A stretch of 64,000 nucleotides of DNA from Aliidongia dinghuensis (GTDB lineage: Bacteria > Pseudomonadota > Alphaproteobacteria > ATCC43930 > CGMCC-115725): positions 186,001 to 250,000 of the forward strand of contig NZ_BMJQ01000011.1 of assembly GCF_014643535.1 (NCBI RefSeq). The letters run 5' to 3'. The notes under the pieces are model-generated. The model was not told the DNA's origin. It saw nothing but the letters and a program-made list of their open reading frames with translations, and searched no databases. How positions within the stretch are numbered: position 1 is the first letter of the stretch; each line of letters opens with the position of its first letter. Below, one piece after another: positions 34,853 to 46,366 of this stretch. Made by a program: the position numbers and the translations under genes.

Positions 34853-37036
34853 CTACCCCCGCCGCGCCCGCTGCCCCTGGGCCGCCTTCTTCGGCCCCCG
34901 CCCCGTGTGCTGCATGAACGGCGTCGTGCCGCCCGGCTTGCGGCCCTCGGGCCCCCGGCTCTGCGGCCGTGCTGGACCCTTGCCCGTGCCCGGCGGTTGC
35001 CAGGCCGGCACGAGTTGATGCATGCCGGGGCCGATGAGATCCGCGCGGCCCATGGCCTTGAGCGCCTCGCGCAGCACGGGCCAGTTCTCCGGGTCGTGGT
35101 AGCGCAGGAACGCCTTGTGCAGCCGCCGCTGCTTCAGGCCCTTGGCCGAGAACACCGGCTCGCCGCCGTTGCGGCGGATGGGCTTAAGCGGGTTCTGCTC
35201 CGTATGGTACATGGTCGCCGAGAGCGACATGGGCGAGGGCAGGAAGGTCTGCACCTGGTCGGCGCGGAACTTGTTGCGCTTCAGCCAGAGCGCCAGGTTC
35301 ATCATGTCTTCGTCGGTCGTCCCCGGATGGGCCGCGATGAAGTAGGGGATGAGGTAGTATTTCTTGCCGGCCGCCTTGGCGTATTTATCGAACAGTTCCT
35401 TGAACCGGTCGTAGGCGCCCATGCCCGGCTTCATCATCTTGGAGAGCGGCCCGTCCTCGGTATGCTCGGGCGCGATCTTCAGGTACCCGCCCACATGGTG
35501 GGTGACGAGCTCCTTGACGTATTCCGGGCTCTTGACCGCCAGGTCGTAGCGCAGGCCGGACGCGATATGGATCTTCTTGACGCCCTTGATCGCGCGCGCC
35601 TTGCGGTAAAGCTCGATCAGCGGCGTGTGATCTGTGTTCAGGTTCTTGCAGATGTCCGGATAGACGCAGGACGGTCGGCGGCAGACCGCCTCGATCTTCG
35701 GGTCCTTGCAGGCGAGCCGGTACATGTTCGCGGTCGGCCCGCCCATGTCCGAGATGACGCCGGTGAAGCCCTCGACCTTGTCGCGGATCTCCTCGATCTC
35801 GCGCAGGATCGATTTTTCCGACCGGCTCTGGATGATGCGGCCCTCGTGCTCGGTGATCGAGCAGAAGGAGCAGCCGCCGAAGCAGCCGCGCATGATGTTG
35901 ACCGAGAAGCGGATCATGTCCCAGGCCGGGATCTTGGCCTCGCCGTATGCGGGATGCGGCGCCCGCGCATAGGGCAGATCATAGACGCCGTCCATCTCCG
36001 GCGTTTCGAGCGGGATCGGCGGCGCGTTCAGCCACAGTTCCTTGTCGCCGTGCCGCTGGACCAGCGGCCGGGCGTTCCCGGGATTGCTCTCCTGGTGCAG
36101 GATGCGGGACGCATGGGCATAGAGGATGCGGTCGTCCTTGACCTGCTCGAACGCCGGCAGGCGCACGACGGTGGACGCGAGGTCGCCGCGGCCGCGCTTT
36201 GCTTCCACGGGCGGGATCTGGGCGGCCTCGGGGGCGGGCGTATTGCGCAATTCCTCCGAGATCGCCCAGGGGCCGCTGTCGGCCGTCAGTTCCGGCACCT
36301 TCTCGTCGACGAGATCGGGTGCCAAGACCGTGAAGCCGTCCGGCACCCGGTCCACCAGGAACGCGGTGCCGCGGATGTCGCGGATCTCGCGCACCTTCTC
36401 GCCGGCCGCCGCCCGATGGGCGATCTCGATGATGGCGCGCTCGGCATTGCCATAGACCAGGATGTCAGCCTTGGCGTCGACCAGGACGGAGCGGCGCACC
36501 TTTTCCGACCAATGGTCGTATTGCGCGATGCGCCGGAGCGACGCCTCGATGCCGCCGAGCACGATCGGCGCGTCCTTGAAGGCCTCGCGGCAGCGCTGGC
36601 TATAGACCAGCACGGCGCGGTCCGGCCGCTTGCCCATGGCGCCGTCCGGCGTGTAGCTGTCGTTGTGCCGGAGCCGCCGGTCGGACGTGTAATGGTTGAC
36701 CAGGCTGTCCATGTTACCGGCGGTCACGCCGAAGAACAGGTTGGGCTTGCCCAGCGCCTTGAACGCCTCGGCGCTCGTCCAGTCCGGCTGGGCGATGATG
36801 CCGACGCGGAACCCCTGCGCCTCCAAGAGCCGGCCGATGATCGCCATGCCGAAGCTCGGATGGTCGATATAGGCGTCGCCGGTCACGATGATAATATCGC
36901 AGCTGTCCCAGCCGAGCTTGTCCATCTCCGCCCGGGTCATGGGCAAGAACGGCGCGGGGCCGAAGCGCTTCGCCCAGAACCTGGGGTAGGTGAAGAGATT
37001 CTTGGCGGCGAGCATGGCCCCGACCCGACTGGTCAT
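34853..37036 (-). CDS. ygiQ: YgiQ-family radical SAM protein
   Basis: A 727-residue UPF0313/YgiQ protein. The N-terminal B12-binding-like region has [20 protein letters not shown], and the radical SAM cluster motif is Cys-x3-Cys-x2-Cys in [18 protein letters not shown]. Family segments such as [20 protein letters not shown] and [19 protein letters not shown] are present. The basic, Gly/Arg/Pro-rich tail is common in the family. Start ATG 37036 (alternative 37015) was chosen because the longer reading runs into an intergenic repeat. The reaction is not established. Confidence 0.95.
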
Positions 37037-37133
37037 TCTGGTGACGCGAATCCGGCAGTAATACGCCTCAGGCCCGCCCGCGCAAGGGGGCGGAGGGCAG
37101 GGCTGTGTCTGAGGCGGGGATGCTTTAACGGGC

Positions 37134-37245
37134 GTCATCCCCGCGAAGGCGGGGATCCAGTCCGTTACGTGCGGCAGCGCGGACAAAGAGTCTTATCGCC
37201 GCAGACGCGGCTCTTGGCTGGATTCCCGCCTCTCGCGGGAATGAC
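37134..37245. repeat. composite palindromic intergenic repeat, copy 2
   Basis: The ends GTCATCCCCGCGAAGGCGGG (from 37134) and CTGGATTCCCGCCTCTCGCG (from 37218) face each other, as in copy 1. The inner segment (GTGCGGCAGCGCGGACAAAG, then GACGCGGCTCTTGG) is closely similar to the reverse complement of the inner segment of copy 3 at 57.6 kb, so the two are the same element in opposite orientation. Confidence 0.85.
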
Positions 37246-37287
37246 GTGGCGGGTTGCGCTTGAGCCGCCGCTAGCGGCCCGAAGCAA

Positions 37288-37707
37288 TCAGCCGGCGCGT
37301 CCCACCGCGTCGAGGAGGTCGGTGTTGGTGTAGGTCGTGCCGGCGATGCCCCAGAGCCCGTCGATCGCGTGCACCATGTTGACGAAGATGCGTTCCTTCG
37401 GGTGCCTGCCACCGGTCGCGCGCGAGACGATCTCAGTCGCGTCCGCCACGAAGCCTTGCTTCTGCTCCGGCGTCGCAAGGGCGAAGGACGGTACCTTGAG
37501 CTCGATGACGACGATGTCGTTCGGCTTGCCGCCCGCGAAGGACTTGCCCTTCGGGATGACGTTGATCTCGCCGATGACGTTCGGGGTCAGGAACGCATTG
37601 CCGACGAGCTGGTGCCGATTGAGGAAGGCGTGGGTCAGTTCGGCGAAGACCTGCTGCTCGGCGTCGCCCGAGAGGACACCTTCGGTCGCATGGACGGTGA
37701 TGGGCAT
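37288..37707 (-). CDS. tautomerase-superfamily protein
   Basis: A 139-residue protein that starts Met-Pro-Ile, so that after Met removal Pro1 would be the catalytic base of the 4-oxalocrotonate tautomerase superfamily. It has the length of the double beta-alpha-beta members (MIF/cis-CaaD-like), and a C-terminal RIFVNMVHAIDGLWGIAG segment. It lies 106 bp after the tetR stop on the same strand, and the gap carries a perfect palindrome shared in part with the tetR promoter, so it is probably the regulator's target. The substrate is unknown. Confidence 0.82.
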   Translation of the reverse strand: MPITVHATEGVLSGDAEQQVFAELTHAFLNRHQLVGNAFLTPNVIGEINVIPKGKSFAGGKPNDIVVIELKVPSFALATPEQKQGFVADATEIVSRATGGRHPKERIFVNMVHAIDGLWGIAGTTYTNTDLLDAVGRAG

Positions 37708-37747
37708 AGCGATTCTCCTCAGTTGGCGTCAGCATTTGCGTTTAAAC

Positions 37748-37773
37748 ACCGATCGCTCTCTATTGATAGAGAG
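37748..37773. promoter_or_regulatory. TetR operator before the tautomerase gene
   Basis: CTCTCTAT (37756-37763) and ATAGAGAG (37766-37773) are perfect 8-bp inverted arms around TG. The left part, ACCGATCGCTCTCT (37748-37761), recurs exactly upstream of tetR at 38438-38451. Position 40-65 bp before the tautomerase start suits repression. Confidence 0.68.
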
Positions 37774-37813
37774 GATTCGCTCCATAAGCAAGGCGAATAA
37801 AGAGTGATTGCTC

Positions 37814-38416
37814 TTAAAGCGTCGAGGCGGACGGCTGTTCCGGACTGGCGAGCTTGACGACGGCCGGCGTCAGGGCGTCGACGATGCGTGCGACGAGCGT
37901 CGGGTCCGGCACGGCACGCGAGAGCGTCACGCCGCCGGTGAGCAGGGCGAGTGCGATCCATGCACGGGTCTCACGCCCGTCCGCCGTCTCGCCGGGCAGG
38001 CCTGCGGCCATGGCGCGCATCACTTCGAGAAGTGCCGTCTGGAACGCCTCCCGCGTTTCCGCCGGCGCGCGGGCGGCTTCGGGCGCGAAGCTCGGCAGCG
38101 CGCAGGCATCCTCGGCGCAGCCGATCTTGGGATCGCTGAAATAGAACTGGGCGAAGTGCCCGAGCCAATCCTCGCCGCCCTCGGCCCGGCACTGGTCGAT
38201 GCCATCGCGCAGCTCGGCCAAGCCCGACGTCACGACCGCGCGGAACGCATCGGCCTTGGTCGCGAAATGCCCGTAGAAAGCGCCGTTGGTGACGCCGGCG
38301 GCCTTGGCGAGCCCGTCGATGCCCAGGCCCTCGTAACCTTCGGCGCGGAAGCGGCGCGCGGCGGCGTCCAGGATCTTCCGGCGGGTTTCTTCCTTGTGCT
38401 CGGCCGAATATCGCAT
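37814..38416 (-). CDS. TetR-family transcriptional regulator
   Basis: A 200-residue TetR regulator. The helix-turn-helix is at about 5-55 (ETRRKILDAAARRFRAEGYE and AAGVTNGAFYGHFATKADAF). The C-terminal domain has the GCAEDACALPSFAPE segment common in TetR proteins beside oxidoreductase or tautomerase genes. GAGGAA lies about 7 bp before ATG 38416; the much longer frame above it is an antisense shadow of the DUF455 gene. Identical 14-bp boxes before tetR and before the tautomerase gene indicate autoregulation and control of that gene. Confidence 0.9.
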   Translation of the reverse strand: MRYSAEHKEETRRKILDAAARRFRAEGYEGLGIDGLAKAAGVTNGAFYGHFATKADAFRAVVTSGLAELRDGIDQCRAEGGEDWLGHFAQFYFSDPKIGCAEDACALPSFAPEAARAPAETREAFQTALLEVMRAMAAGLPGETADGRETRAWIALALLTGGVTLSRAVPDPTLVARIVDALTPAVVKLASPEQPSASTL

Positions 38417-38437
38417 CGCCGTTCCTCGAACTTTTAT

Positions 38438-38451
38438 ACCGATCGCTCTCT
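38438..38451. promoter_or_regulatory. TetR box upstream of tetR
   Basis: ACCGATCGCTCTCT is repeated exactly from the operator at 37748-37761. The right arm here is degenerate (TTTGATTCTGGAGATAG against TATTGATAGAGAG), so it may be a weaker site. It lies 22 bp before the tetR start. Confidence 0.55.
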
Positions 38452-38502
38452 TTGATTCTGGAGATAGGGCGGAATCCTCACCGGTCCAAGCACATTCCGC
38501 GG

Positions 38503-39345
38503 CTAGGAGGCGTCGCCGCCTGGTGCGGCCAGCGGCTCGTAGAAATCCGCCGGCAGGCCTGCGGCGGCGCGGGCGTCGGTGTTGAACGGGCGTTTCAAGG
38601 CGCCCTTGAAGTGGCGGCGCACGAGATCCTGCCAGGTCGGCTCCGGGGCGAGCCCGCGTTCGGCGCAGATGGCGTCGAACCAGCGGCGGCCGATTGCGAC
38701 ATGGCCGATCTCGTCGCGGTAAATCACGCGCAATGCCGCGGCGCTGGCCGTGTCGCCGAACTTGTCGAGGCCCCCGATCATCTGCGGCGTCACGTCGAGG
38801 CCGCGCGCCTCCAGCACCAGGGGCACGATGGCGAGGCGGGCCAAGAGGTCGTGCGCAGTTACCTCGGCCGCCTGCCAGAGGCCGTCGTGGGCCGGCAGGT
38901 CGCCGTAAGCGGCGTCGAGGGCGGCGAGCCGGTCGGCCAAGAGCCCGTGATGCGTCGCCTCCTCGTCGGAGACCTTGACCCAATCGTCCCAGAATTGGCG
39001 TGGTCGCGCCAATTCTGGGACGACTGGGTCGGCGAAGCGGGCGACCAGGTCCCAGACCAGGTCGAGCGCATTGAGCTCGATATGCGCCAGCGCATGGAGC
39101 AGCGCCACGCGGCTCTGGAGCGAGCCGCCCGAACGGCGCTTCGGCATGTCGCGCGGCAGGCGCAGTTCGGGCGTGGCCGGGCGGGCCGGACGCGCGGGCG
39201 GCAGCGCGCCGGATCCGACGGGCAACGCACCGGCGCGCCAGGCCGCGGCCAGATCATGGGTCAGCCGGATCTTCCCGGCCGGTTCCGCGGTCTTAAGGAT
39301 CTCGACCGCGCCCTCGGTCAGGCTTGTGGGCAGGCTCGCCGCCAT
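38503..39345 (-). CDS. DUF455-family ferritin-like protein
   Basis: A 280-residue protein of the DUF455 family, a ferritin-like di-iron helical bundle. Probable ligands are in HALAHIELNALDL, DEEATHHGLL and IYRDEIGHVAIGRRWF. It is the third gene of the glnE - bcp - DUF455 run, 6 bp after bcp, a conserved alphaproteobacterial arrangement. Between LVARFA and WVKVSDEE the protein has DPVVPELARPRQFWDD, encoded by two arms of a 24-bp inverted repeat. About 10 residues there look like an insertion relative to the usual helix. Its enzymatic role is not known. Confidence 0.85.
   Translation of the reverse strand: MAASLPTSLTEGAVEILKTAEPAGKIRLTHDLAAAWRAGALPVGSGALPPARPARPATPELRLPRDMPKRRSGGSLQSRVALLHALAHIELNALDLVWDLVARFADPVVPELARPRQFWDDWVKVSDEEATHHGLLADRLAALDAAYGDLPAHDGLWQAAEVTAHDLLARLAIVPLVLEARGLDVTPQMIGGLDKFGDTASAAALRVIYRDEIGHVAIGRRWFDAICAERGLAPEPTWQDLVRRHFKGALKRPFNTDARAAAGLPADFYEPLAAPGGDAS
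38977..39030. repeat. 24-bp inverted repeat within the DUF455 coding sequence
   Basis: Positions 38977-39000 and 39007-39030 are reverse complements at 23 of 24 positions, with a 6-base spacer. The inner 16 bp, CGTCCCAGAATTGGCG against CGCCAATTCTGGGACG, are perfect. It is far longer than expected by chance inside a coding sequence. Confidence 0.9.
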
Positions 39346-39351
39346 GCCGCG

Positions 39352-39812
<461 letters not shown>

Positions 39813-39816
<4 letters not shown>

Positions 39817-42800
39817 GGTCCTTTGGTCTCCGTTGATTGCTGGCCGGGCGATTGTCTATCGGGCGGTTGCAGTTCGGGATGGGCCCGGCGCGCCCGCTTG
39901 GCCGGGCGGGCGACGAGCCGTTCATAGAGTGCCAGGCCGCGCGCCGCCACCTCGTCGAGCCGCGCATAGGCCAGCGCCGGGTCCTTGGTGCCGGTCGCGC
40001 GCGTGAGCGCGCGGGCGAGCAGGTCGGCTGTGGCGCTCTGCTCGGCATCCTTGCCGACGGCGACTCGCAGCATGCCCTGGACCTGATGCCAGAACGCGAG
40101 CCCCTCCAGGAGCTCGGCGCCGACCTCCGGGTCGATCCGATGGGCGGTGATCAGCCGGCGAAAGGCCGCATTGGTCGCGGTCGCGAGCACGCTCGGGTCT
40201 TCGGGAGCGACGCGCAACTGCAGATACTGTGCAATGAATTCCAGGTCGACCAGGCCGCCGCGCCGGTGCTTGGCGTCCCATGGCGTGGGCTTCAGATGTG
40301 CCTTCTCGATGCGGATGCGCATGTCGTCGACGTCGATGAGCAGCCGGTCTGCGTCCCGGGGCTTGGTCAGCAGGGTTCGGATCGTCGCCTCGGTCTCGCG
40401 GGCGAGGCTCGCGTCGCCGGCAACCGCCCGGGCGCGAGTCAGCGCCATATGCTCCCAGGTCCAGGCCTGCTCCTCGTGGTAGCGCAGGAACCCGTCGAGC
40501 TTCGAGGCGATCGGCCCGGCATTGCCCGAGGGCCTGAGCCGCATGTCGACCTCGTAGAGATTGCCCTCGCCGGTTGGCGCCTGCAGCGCGTTGATGAGCC
40601 GCTGGCCGAGCCGCGCGTAATAGGTCGTGTAGGCGAGCGGCTTCGCCCCGTCCGAGTTCTCGATGCCGTCGGGCACCGAATAGAGGAAGATCAGGTCGAG
40701 GTCGGAGAGCTGGTTCAGCTCCGATGAGCCGAGCTTGCCCAGGCCCAGCACCAGGAATCGCCCGCCCGGCACGTGGCCATGCTGGCGGGCGAATTCTTCC
40801 TCGACGCGCGGCAGCAGGGTCTGGATGACGATGTCGGCCACGGCCGAGAAATGCTTGGCCGAGCGCCAACCTTCGATGCGCCCCTGCAGCAGCTGCACGC
40901 CGATCTGGAACTTGCGGTCGTTGGCCCAGCGCCGGGTCAGGTCGAGCAGGTCCTCGTAGTCGCGCGCCCGCGCCACGGCGAGGCTCAGGTCACGGGTGAG
41001 CGCGCGATGGAGCGCCCGCTCCTCGGTCGGCAGCGGGATGAAGAACGCGCCGCTGATGACGCCGTCGAGCAACAGCGGCCGGCGCGCCAGCTGGACCGCG
41101 AGCTGGGGTGATTCTCCCATGATCTCCGCCACCAGCTGAAGCAGGTCCGGGTGATGCTGGAACAGCGAGAACATCTGCACGCCGGCCGGCAGGCGGCTCA
41201 GGAACTCGTCGAACCGGATGAAGGCGAAATCCGGGTCGGCCGTCTTGCCGAGCACACGCAGCAGGGCGGGCGTCAGCTCGGTCAGAAGTTCGCGTGCCCG
41301 GGCGCTGCGCGTCGCGCGGATGCGGCCATGATGCCAGCCGCGGATCGCGTCCGCGACCGGCTCGGGCGACTTGAAGCCCATGGCCCTGAGCGTGGCCAGC
41401 GTGTCCGGGTCGAGCTCCTTGCCGGTGAAGACCAGGTTGCCCTCCGCCGAAAGTGCCGGCGCGCCGCGGAACAGCTCGGCGAAATGCCGGCGCACGACGG
41501 CGAGCTCGCGGCCGAGATCCGCCGCGAAGGATGCGGCGTCCGGGAAGCCCAGGAAGATCGCAAGCCGGCCGAGCGCCTGCGGATCGGTCGGCAGGCTGTG
41601 GGTCTGCGCGTCGTCGATCATCTGCAGCCGATGCTCGACCCGGCGCAGCACGCGATAGGCATGGGCGAGATCGTCGGCGATCGGGTCGGCGAGCCGCCCG
41701 GTCGCGACCAGGCCCTCGAGCGTCTCGATCGTGCCTGGGCTCCGGAGCGTCGGCACGCGGCCGCCCCAGATCAGCTGCTGGGTCTGGGCGAAGAACTCGA
41801 TCTCGCGGATGCCGCCGTGGCCGAGCTTGATGTTGTGGCCGGCGAGGCCCGCCGCGGGGGCGCCATGGCGGGCGTCGATCTGGCGCTTGATCGAATGGAT
41901 GTCGCGGATGGCGGCGAAATCCAGGTGCTTGCGCCAGATGAAGGGCCCGAGCGTCTTGAGGAATGCCTGGCCGGCCGGGATGTCGCCCGCCACCGGGCGC
42001 GCCTTGATCATGGCGGCGCGTTCCCAGTTCTGGCCGAGGCTGCCGTAGTAGGTTTCGGCGGCGGCGACCGAGACCGCGGGCGGCGTCGAGGCCGGATCGG
42101 GCCGGAGCCTCAAGTCGGTGCGGAACACGTAGCCGTCGACGGTGCGCTCCTCCAGCAGCTTGACCAGGTCGCGCGCCAGCCGCGCCATCAGCGGCTGGAT
42201 CGCGTCGCGGCCGCGATAGTCCATCCGGTCGGCGTCATAGAGGATGATGAGGTCGATGTCGGAGGAATAGTTGAGCTCGTGGGCACCGAGCTTGCCCATG
42301 CCGAGCACGATGACGCCGCTGTCGCGCTCGGGCTCGTCCGGATGGGGCAGCGCCAGCTGGCCGCTGGTGTGGGCGCCGACTAGGAGATGGCGCACGGCCG
42401 CGCCCAGCGCCGCGTCGGCAAGCGCGCTCAAGGCGCCCGTGACGCGTTCGAGCGGCCAGAGCTCGGCAATATCGGCAAGTGCGATCACGAGTGCCGCGCG
42501 GCGCTTCGCGGCGCGCAGCCGCGTCATGATCTCGGCACGCGGCTCGTGGCCCGTAAGGGCGGCCACTTCCTCGAGCACACGCGCGAGCGCCGGCTCGATC
42601 CCCGTCGTCATGGCGGCGAGCGCGACTTCGGGTTCGCGGAGGGCCAAGCGGGTGAGGTACGGCGAATTGCCGAAGACGGCGTCGAGCCAGGCATGCGTCG
42701 TCGGGTCGGCCGCGACCGCGGCCATGCCGCGACCAAGCGGCTCGCCCGTCTCGGATTCAGCTGTCGCGGCTTCGGCCGCCGCAGTCCAGCGCTCCCATTC

Positions 42801-46295: not shown

Positions 46296-46304
46296 AGCCG
46301 GATC

Positions 46305-46340
46305 GAATTGAGTGGAATCGCATTGCGATCCACTCAATTC
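46305..46340. terminator. long stem-loop after the YhdP-like gene
   Basis: GAATTGAGTGGA (46305-46316) pairs perfectly with TCCACTCAATTC (46329-46340), and the inner TCGCA/TGCGA extends the stem to 17 pairs with one bulged A. It lies 10 bp after the YhdP-like stop, between convergent genes. Confidence 0.7.
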
Positions 46341-46366
46341 GTGAATCCGTCTCTAATCAAATGTTT

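Follow-up and report, generated by a model that had tools for sequence, protein, structure and literature searches.

An in-frame palindromic insertion, probably templated by neighbouring codons, in a bacterial DUF455 gene

Introduction

A gene of the DUF455 family in Aliidongia dinghuensis carries two stretches of 24 nt that are nearly the reverse complement of each other, and both are translated in frame within the same protein. How did a coding sequence come to hold an inverted copy of its own codons? An earlier note on this DNA had taken the pair for a templated inverted duplication, i.e. a quasi-palindrome event, that stayed in frame. The correction of quasi-palindromes by template switching is established in E. 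coli, according to the passages of PMC7202029 available to us. Here, we analyse the repeat in its window (the whole stretch of DNA under study, 64 kb), in the whole genome of 7.37 Mb and among its homologues. The features are the following (positions in the window).

38503-39345, minus strand: DUF455 (PF04305) gene, 280 aa (open reading frame and Pfam match)
38977-39000 and 39007-39030: arms of the inverted repeat inside the DUF455 (PF04305) gene, loop of 6 nt
38977-39000, minus strand: downstream arm in the gene (putative template arm), codons for RQFWDDWV, old and conserved
39001-39006, minus strand: loop of 6 nt, CGACCA, residues RP
39007-39030, minus strand: upstream arm in the gene (putative copied arm), codons for DPVVPELA
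39010-39024, minus strand: net insertion of 15 nt, GTC GTC CCA GAA TTG, encoding VVPEL (codon alignment with the genus-mate)
38983 versus 39024: sole mismatch between the arms, plus-strand letters A and C

Results

The inverted repeat

The inverted-repeat scan recovered both arms where the earlier note had placed them, with complementarity at 23 of 24 positions (96%) between arms of 24 nt each, separated by a 6-nt spacer. In the translated reading frame the upstream arm gives DPVVPELA and the downstream arm RQFWDDWV. At +1 for each match and -2 for each mismatch, loops being allowed from 3 to 30 nt, the repeat reaches a score of 21. The runner-up in the real 64-kb window scores 13, and the best repeat in each of 20 windows simulated by an order-2 Markov model of the 64 kb scores 10-15. 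This is the strongest short-loop inverted repeat of the window, and it lies above what is expected by chance. Elsewhere in the same genome, 20 repeats reach a score of 14 and the highest is 17, all below 21, in 60 stretches from 12 contigs, of each of which the first 100 kb were scanned (1.2 Mb out of 7.37 Mb, the window being left out).

The coding-strand RNA of the region (94 nt) folds with a minimum free energy of -60.6 kcal/mol, against -33.2 ± 3.8 for 200 shuffles (z = -7.18). All 24 arm positions pair in this fold, because the single mismatch forms a G-U pair in the coding-strand RNA. The plus strand at 38965-39048 also yields a VPELA..RQFWDDWV segment, a weak self-match (E = 2e-4) that arises because it is a by-product of the palindrome.

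The host gene and its family

The host protein matches Pfam DUF455 with E = 1e-96 and 323.7 bits, against a curated cut-off of 34.3, over residues 19-270 and positions 2-247 of the 247 of the model. No NCBIfam family matched it at E = 0.001, and a sequence search for a solved relative gave none at E up to 1. The family is mentioned in one passage of the part of PMC4520260 available to us.

We aligned 43 sequences, i.e. the query and 42 others hand-picked from the best 80 of 565 homologous loci. Residues E90, E129, H132, E179, E212 and H215 are invariant in this alignment, and D120, D121 and W122 nearly so. The RQFWDDWV of the downstream arm lands on the conserved DDW region of the family, and it matches the genus-mate at the level of codons. 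The ferritin-like fold is a helical bundle with Glu and E-x-x-H positions. The top PDB matches in a structure search were symerythrin (3qhb, E = 0.081) and bacterioferritins; these are weak, with no match at E <= 0.001. By their resemblance to ferritin-like proteins, to which the structural matches are weak, the invariant Glu and His residues may bind metal.

Comparison with a genus-mate

The homologous gene of the one genus-mate with a sequenced genome (G001, locus L030) lacks exactly the 15 nt of the insertion, and its protein reads ADPALPREFWDDW in this place. Its codons are GAT CCG - GCC CTG CCA CGC GAA TTC TGG GAC GAC TGG GTC; those of the query are GAC CCA [GTC GTC CCA GAA TTG] GCG CGA CCA CGC CAA TTC TGG GAC GAT TGG GTC. 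The downstream arm thus aligns with the genus-mate codon for codon. The earlier note had proposed a gain of about ten residues, and had found no family counterpart for DPVVPELA. Relative to the genus-mate, the net gain is of five residues (15 nt). The lack of a counterpart stands for VVPEL and fails for the outer DP and the inner A, which are matched in the genus-mate sequence ADPALPREFWDDW.

Elsewhere in the upstream arm there are three silent differences between the two genomes (GAT/GAC, CCG/CCA and GCC/GCG, genus-mate first). All three favour perfect pairing in the query, whichever state is the older. Hence, the copied tract may extend over all 24 nt instead of just 15. The genus-mate is an imperfect nearest comparator, because its gene has an out-of-frame deletion of 134 nt further downstream, which removes the conserved E212/H215 region; it is nonetheless in frame across the insertion site. 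This deletion reflects either a pseudogene or an assembly error.

The two genes differ at 38 of 96 fourfold sites (170 codons compared), and the arms of the repeat at 1 of 24 positions. This contrast suggests that the event took place well after the split from the genus-mate, unless repeated correction kept the arms alike.

Source of the inserted nucleotides

The 15-nt insert is the reverse complement of CAATTCTGGGACGAC. When compared with the rest of the gene, 14 of the 15 nt, contiguous, are identical to the reverse complement of the neighbouring codons, in support of the templated inverted duplication proposed in the earlier note. The 15th falls on position 38983, where the Asp codon of the template arm is now GAT; the insert fits GAC, as found in the genus-mate, and the copied arm holds the complement of GAC. 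Among 20 000 random five-codon inserts, none reached a match of 14 nt to the reverse complement within ±60 nt and one reached 13, under a simple null whose codons were drawn from four genes of the window, the DUF455 gene among them.

In the whole 7.37-Mb genome, a 16-nt core covering most of the insert has exact matches only in the two arms. With one or two mismatches allowed, there are four further matches, against five for a reversed-pattern control. A dispersed repeat was considered and rejected, as no scattered copies were found in the genome. An exact 22-nt piece had no match in viral contigs. The copied arm and the loop include codons that are rare in the four window genes (CCA 5%, TTG 6.5% and CGA 2.2%) and, despite these, also common ones (GTC, GAC and GCG). 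At third codon positions, the G+C content of the insert is 0.60, versus 0.90 in the comparison.

Homologues and genomes of the order

We compared 104 distinct proteins across the site, the query included. They derive from the best 80 of 565 confirmed homologues and from loci of a separate search, after removal of L001, L002, L034 and L035, of matches not spanning residues 95-130 and of identical proteins. VVPEL is absent from the insertion place in all 103 other distinct homologues of this set (best 80 of 565 plus further loci), and from L178, which was looked at separately. Nor did we find, in the same set drawn from the best 80 of 565 and further loci, any homologue with the same residues from unrelated codons, the observation that the earlier note had named as speaking against its reading. 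The string VPEL does occur in L116, but in the N-terminal part and not at the insertion place; we take it as a coincidence.

The linker aligned to residues 105-120 has 11 residues in 79 of these 104 proteins, 9-10 in 11, 14-15 in 11 and 16 in three: the query, L065 and L107. Other longer linkers carry unrelated residues. Judged from these sequences, the length of the query linker is rare, not unique. Since 2 of the 103 other homologues (best 80 of 565 plus further loci) have unrelated linkers of the same length, the loop tolerates insertions. This loop between two DUF455 helices is prone to indels: ten relatives, including Nitrospirillum and Niveispirillum, have a linker longer by four residues that contains PDG (L041, L042, L045, L046, L048, L052, L054, L055, L061 and L095), and in L065 and L107 it is longer by five. 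Local direct or inverted matches in the long linkers of L065, L107 and L041 span at most 5-7 nt, which gives no signal of templating. In the matched regions of the 104 distinct homologous genes, with the query left out, the best repeat scores 13, against 21.

A 41-nt pattern of the hairpin, with up to three mismatches, was found in 1 of the 43 genomes of the order. The DUF455 gene is present in 23 of the 39 genomes of the family (including that of the query) and in none of the four from the second family of the order. Of the 42 genomes without the hairpin, 22 are therefore informative, as only these showed a DUF455 match. An older, shared insertion was rejected, as it was seen neither in the 103 other homologues (best 80 of 565 plus further loci), nor in L178, nor in the other 42 genomes of the order.

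Predicted effect on the protein

In the AlphaFold2 model (mean pLDDT 89.7; 79 and 88 in two blocks around the insert), residues 104-115 lie between helices 76-103 and 116-142 and include a three-residue helical turn at 110-112. VVPEL (108-112) is predicted to lengthen this inter-helix loop. E90 is inside the first of the flanking helices, E129 and H132 inside the second, and E179, E212 and H215 come further on. The modelled helix 116-142, which carries E129 and H132, directly follows the predicted loop, in agreement with the helix junction beside a conserved Glu/His helix anticipated by the earlier note. As the extra residues fall in a length-tolerant loop between predicted helices, the protein probably still works, and the insertion may well be neutral.

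Discussion

How the insertion may have arisen

The insert matches its neighbour, and on this ground we hold that a quasi-palindrome template switch very probably made the 15-nt insertion on this lineage, after the split from the genus-mate. The new sequence is the reverse complement of adjacent older sequence, and the relatives, i.e. the homologues (best 80 of 565 plus further loci) and the genomes of the order, lack the new copy. We infer the switch itself, the exact switch points and the order of events. The starting point would have been a short imperfect inverted repeat, with an outer stem close to GACCCA/TGGGTC and an inner one close to GCG/CGC around a 6-nt loop. The genus-mate departs from these proposed stems with GATCCG for GACCCA and GCC for GCG, and has CTG where the loop has CGA. 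Its outer stem pairs at 4 of 6 positions (GATCCG/TGGGTC) and its inner one at 2 of 3 (GCC/CGC), the genus-mate not being the ancestor itself.

During replication through this imperfect repeat, the polymerase would have switched template, written a backward copy of the downstream arm where the upstream one was due, and gone back to the original template. The return would have filled in 15 nt that had no prior partner, turning the quasi-palindrome into a near-perfect palindrome of 24 bp. The frame stayed open because 15 nt make whole codons and no stop codon lies in the copied strand. The mismatch between the arms is best read as a later synonymous change, from GAC to GAT, in the template arm. 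As it is the sense upstream arm that would have been rewritten, either the nascent antisense strand, having copied the downstream arm, folded back on itself, or the nascent sense strand moved across to the other strand; the two routes fit the data alike.

Alternative explanations

The insertion might instead be an artefact of assembly, amplification or library preparation, in which the consensus took up an inverted copy from a fold-back chimera. Such chimeras are a known class of artefact, and the feature was seen in a single genome (1 of the 43 of the order), known from an assembly consensus. However, the arms differ at one silent Asp codon, where the copied arm keeps the state of the genus-mate, and the frame is kept with no stop and with the gene in register with its relatives on both sides. 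The site is also inside a contig of 289,174 nt, and the 20 other short-loop repeats found in the 60 stretches of the assembly are all weaker. These points are all indirect; together they make an assembly error unlikely.

Selection on the hairpin is a different possibility, with a strong mRNA stem acting on translation, decay or early termination. The very stable fold (-60.6 kcal/mol versus -33.2 ± 3.8 in shuffles) is what this would predict, but such stability is an automatic result of an inverted copy. The hairpin was found in only one of the 43 genomes, and a search of positions 36000-42000 of the window against Rfam gave nothing at E up to 0.1. We regard this explanation as very improbable. 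The in-frame insertion of a mobile palindromic element is hardly credible: transposable elements of this type are kept within Rickettsia proteins, as mentioned in a passage of PMC6649704, but here the 16-nt core has no second copy in the whole genome beyond the two arms, and one arm is conserved family sequence, so that just 15 nt were gained and not a whole element.

Known parallels

With a template switch as the preferred reading, the case resembles the quasi-palindrome reporters in E. coli lacZ, in which, according to the passages of PMC7202029 at hand, copying between arms makes an imperfect repeat near-perfect and changes its length. Those reporters register the loss of a 4-bp frameshift next to an 18-bp repeat, whereas the present gain of 15 nt is in frame and lies in an uncharacterised gene of a natural genome. 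As with the template-switch RNA hairpins of PMC8794818 and the yeast protein changes of PMC8604942, the process is deduced from comparative sequence. The former counts, among its classes in rRNA genes, insertions in one half of a stem. In the available parts of these papers, PMC8794818 deals with RNA genes and PMC8604942 with protein substitutions in yeast, indels being left out, while the present case is an insertion in a bacterial protein gene.

Further parallels come from passages of PMC6649704. The Rickettsia palindromic elements that it mentions also place a palindrome in frame within a bacterial protein gene, but they are described as transposable, whereas the palindrome of the query is single-copy and would be locally templated. 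The coding palindromes of nematomorph mitochondria are likewise inverted repeats within genes, and in a few cases insertions are tolerated opposite a conserved arm. In contrast to the present repeat, where one arm only is conserved, they reach 284 bp, are numerous, and have conserved residues in both arms. Among the matches listed for open-licence literature on quasipalindromes or template switching, DUF455 and in-frame palindromic insertion (titles and abstract openings), none names this case.

It is likely that a natural in-frame template switch gave a bacterial, probably ferritin-like, protein a five-residue loop segment in one step. If so, this class of mutation also supplies insertions to bacterial proteins, not only substitutions or frameshifts. 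The locus adds one tidy example to a known class of mutation and is not a new system, and the palindrome alone leaves the view of DUF455 or of the organism unchanged. It would be a clean case in which a gene's own codons, read from the opposite strand, supplied new protein sequence, and a possible worked example for genome-wide screens aimed at templated insertions into bacterial proteins.

Other inverted repeats of this genome

The window also contains, at 46304-46341, a perfect inverted repeat whose arms measure 13 nt and whose loop measures 12 nt; it is within the range of the Markov controls. Two other coding palindromes were seen in the same genome. One, at 2892-2938 of L134, has perfect 16-nt arms and a 15-nt loop, within the open reading frame of a replication initiator (PF10134). 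The other, at 19710-19748 of L145, has arms of 18 nt that differ by one mismatch, and a loop of 3 nt; it lies in an ABC transporter ATPase gene (PF00005), just ahead of the Walker A motif.
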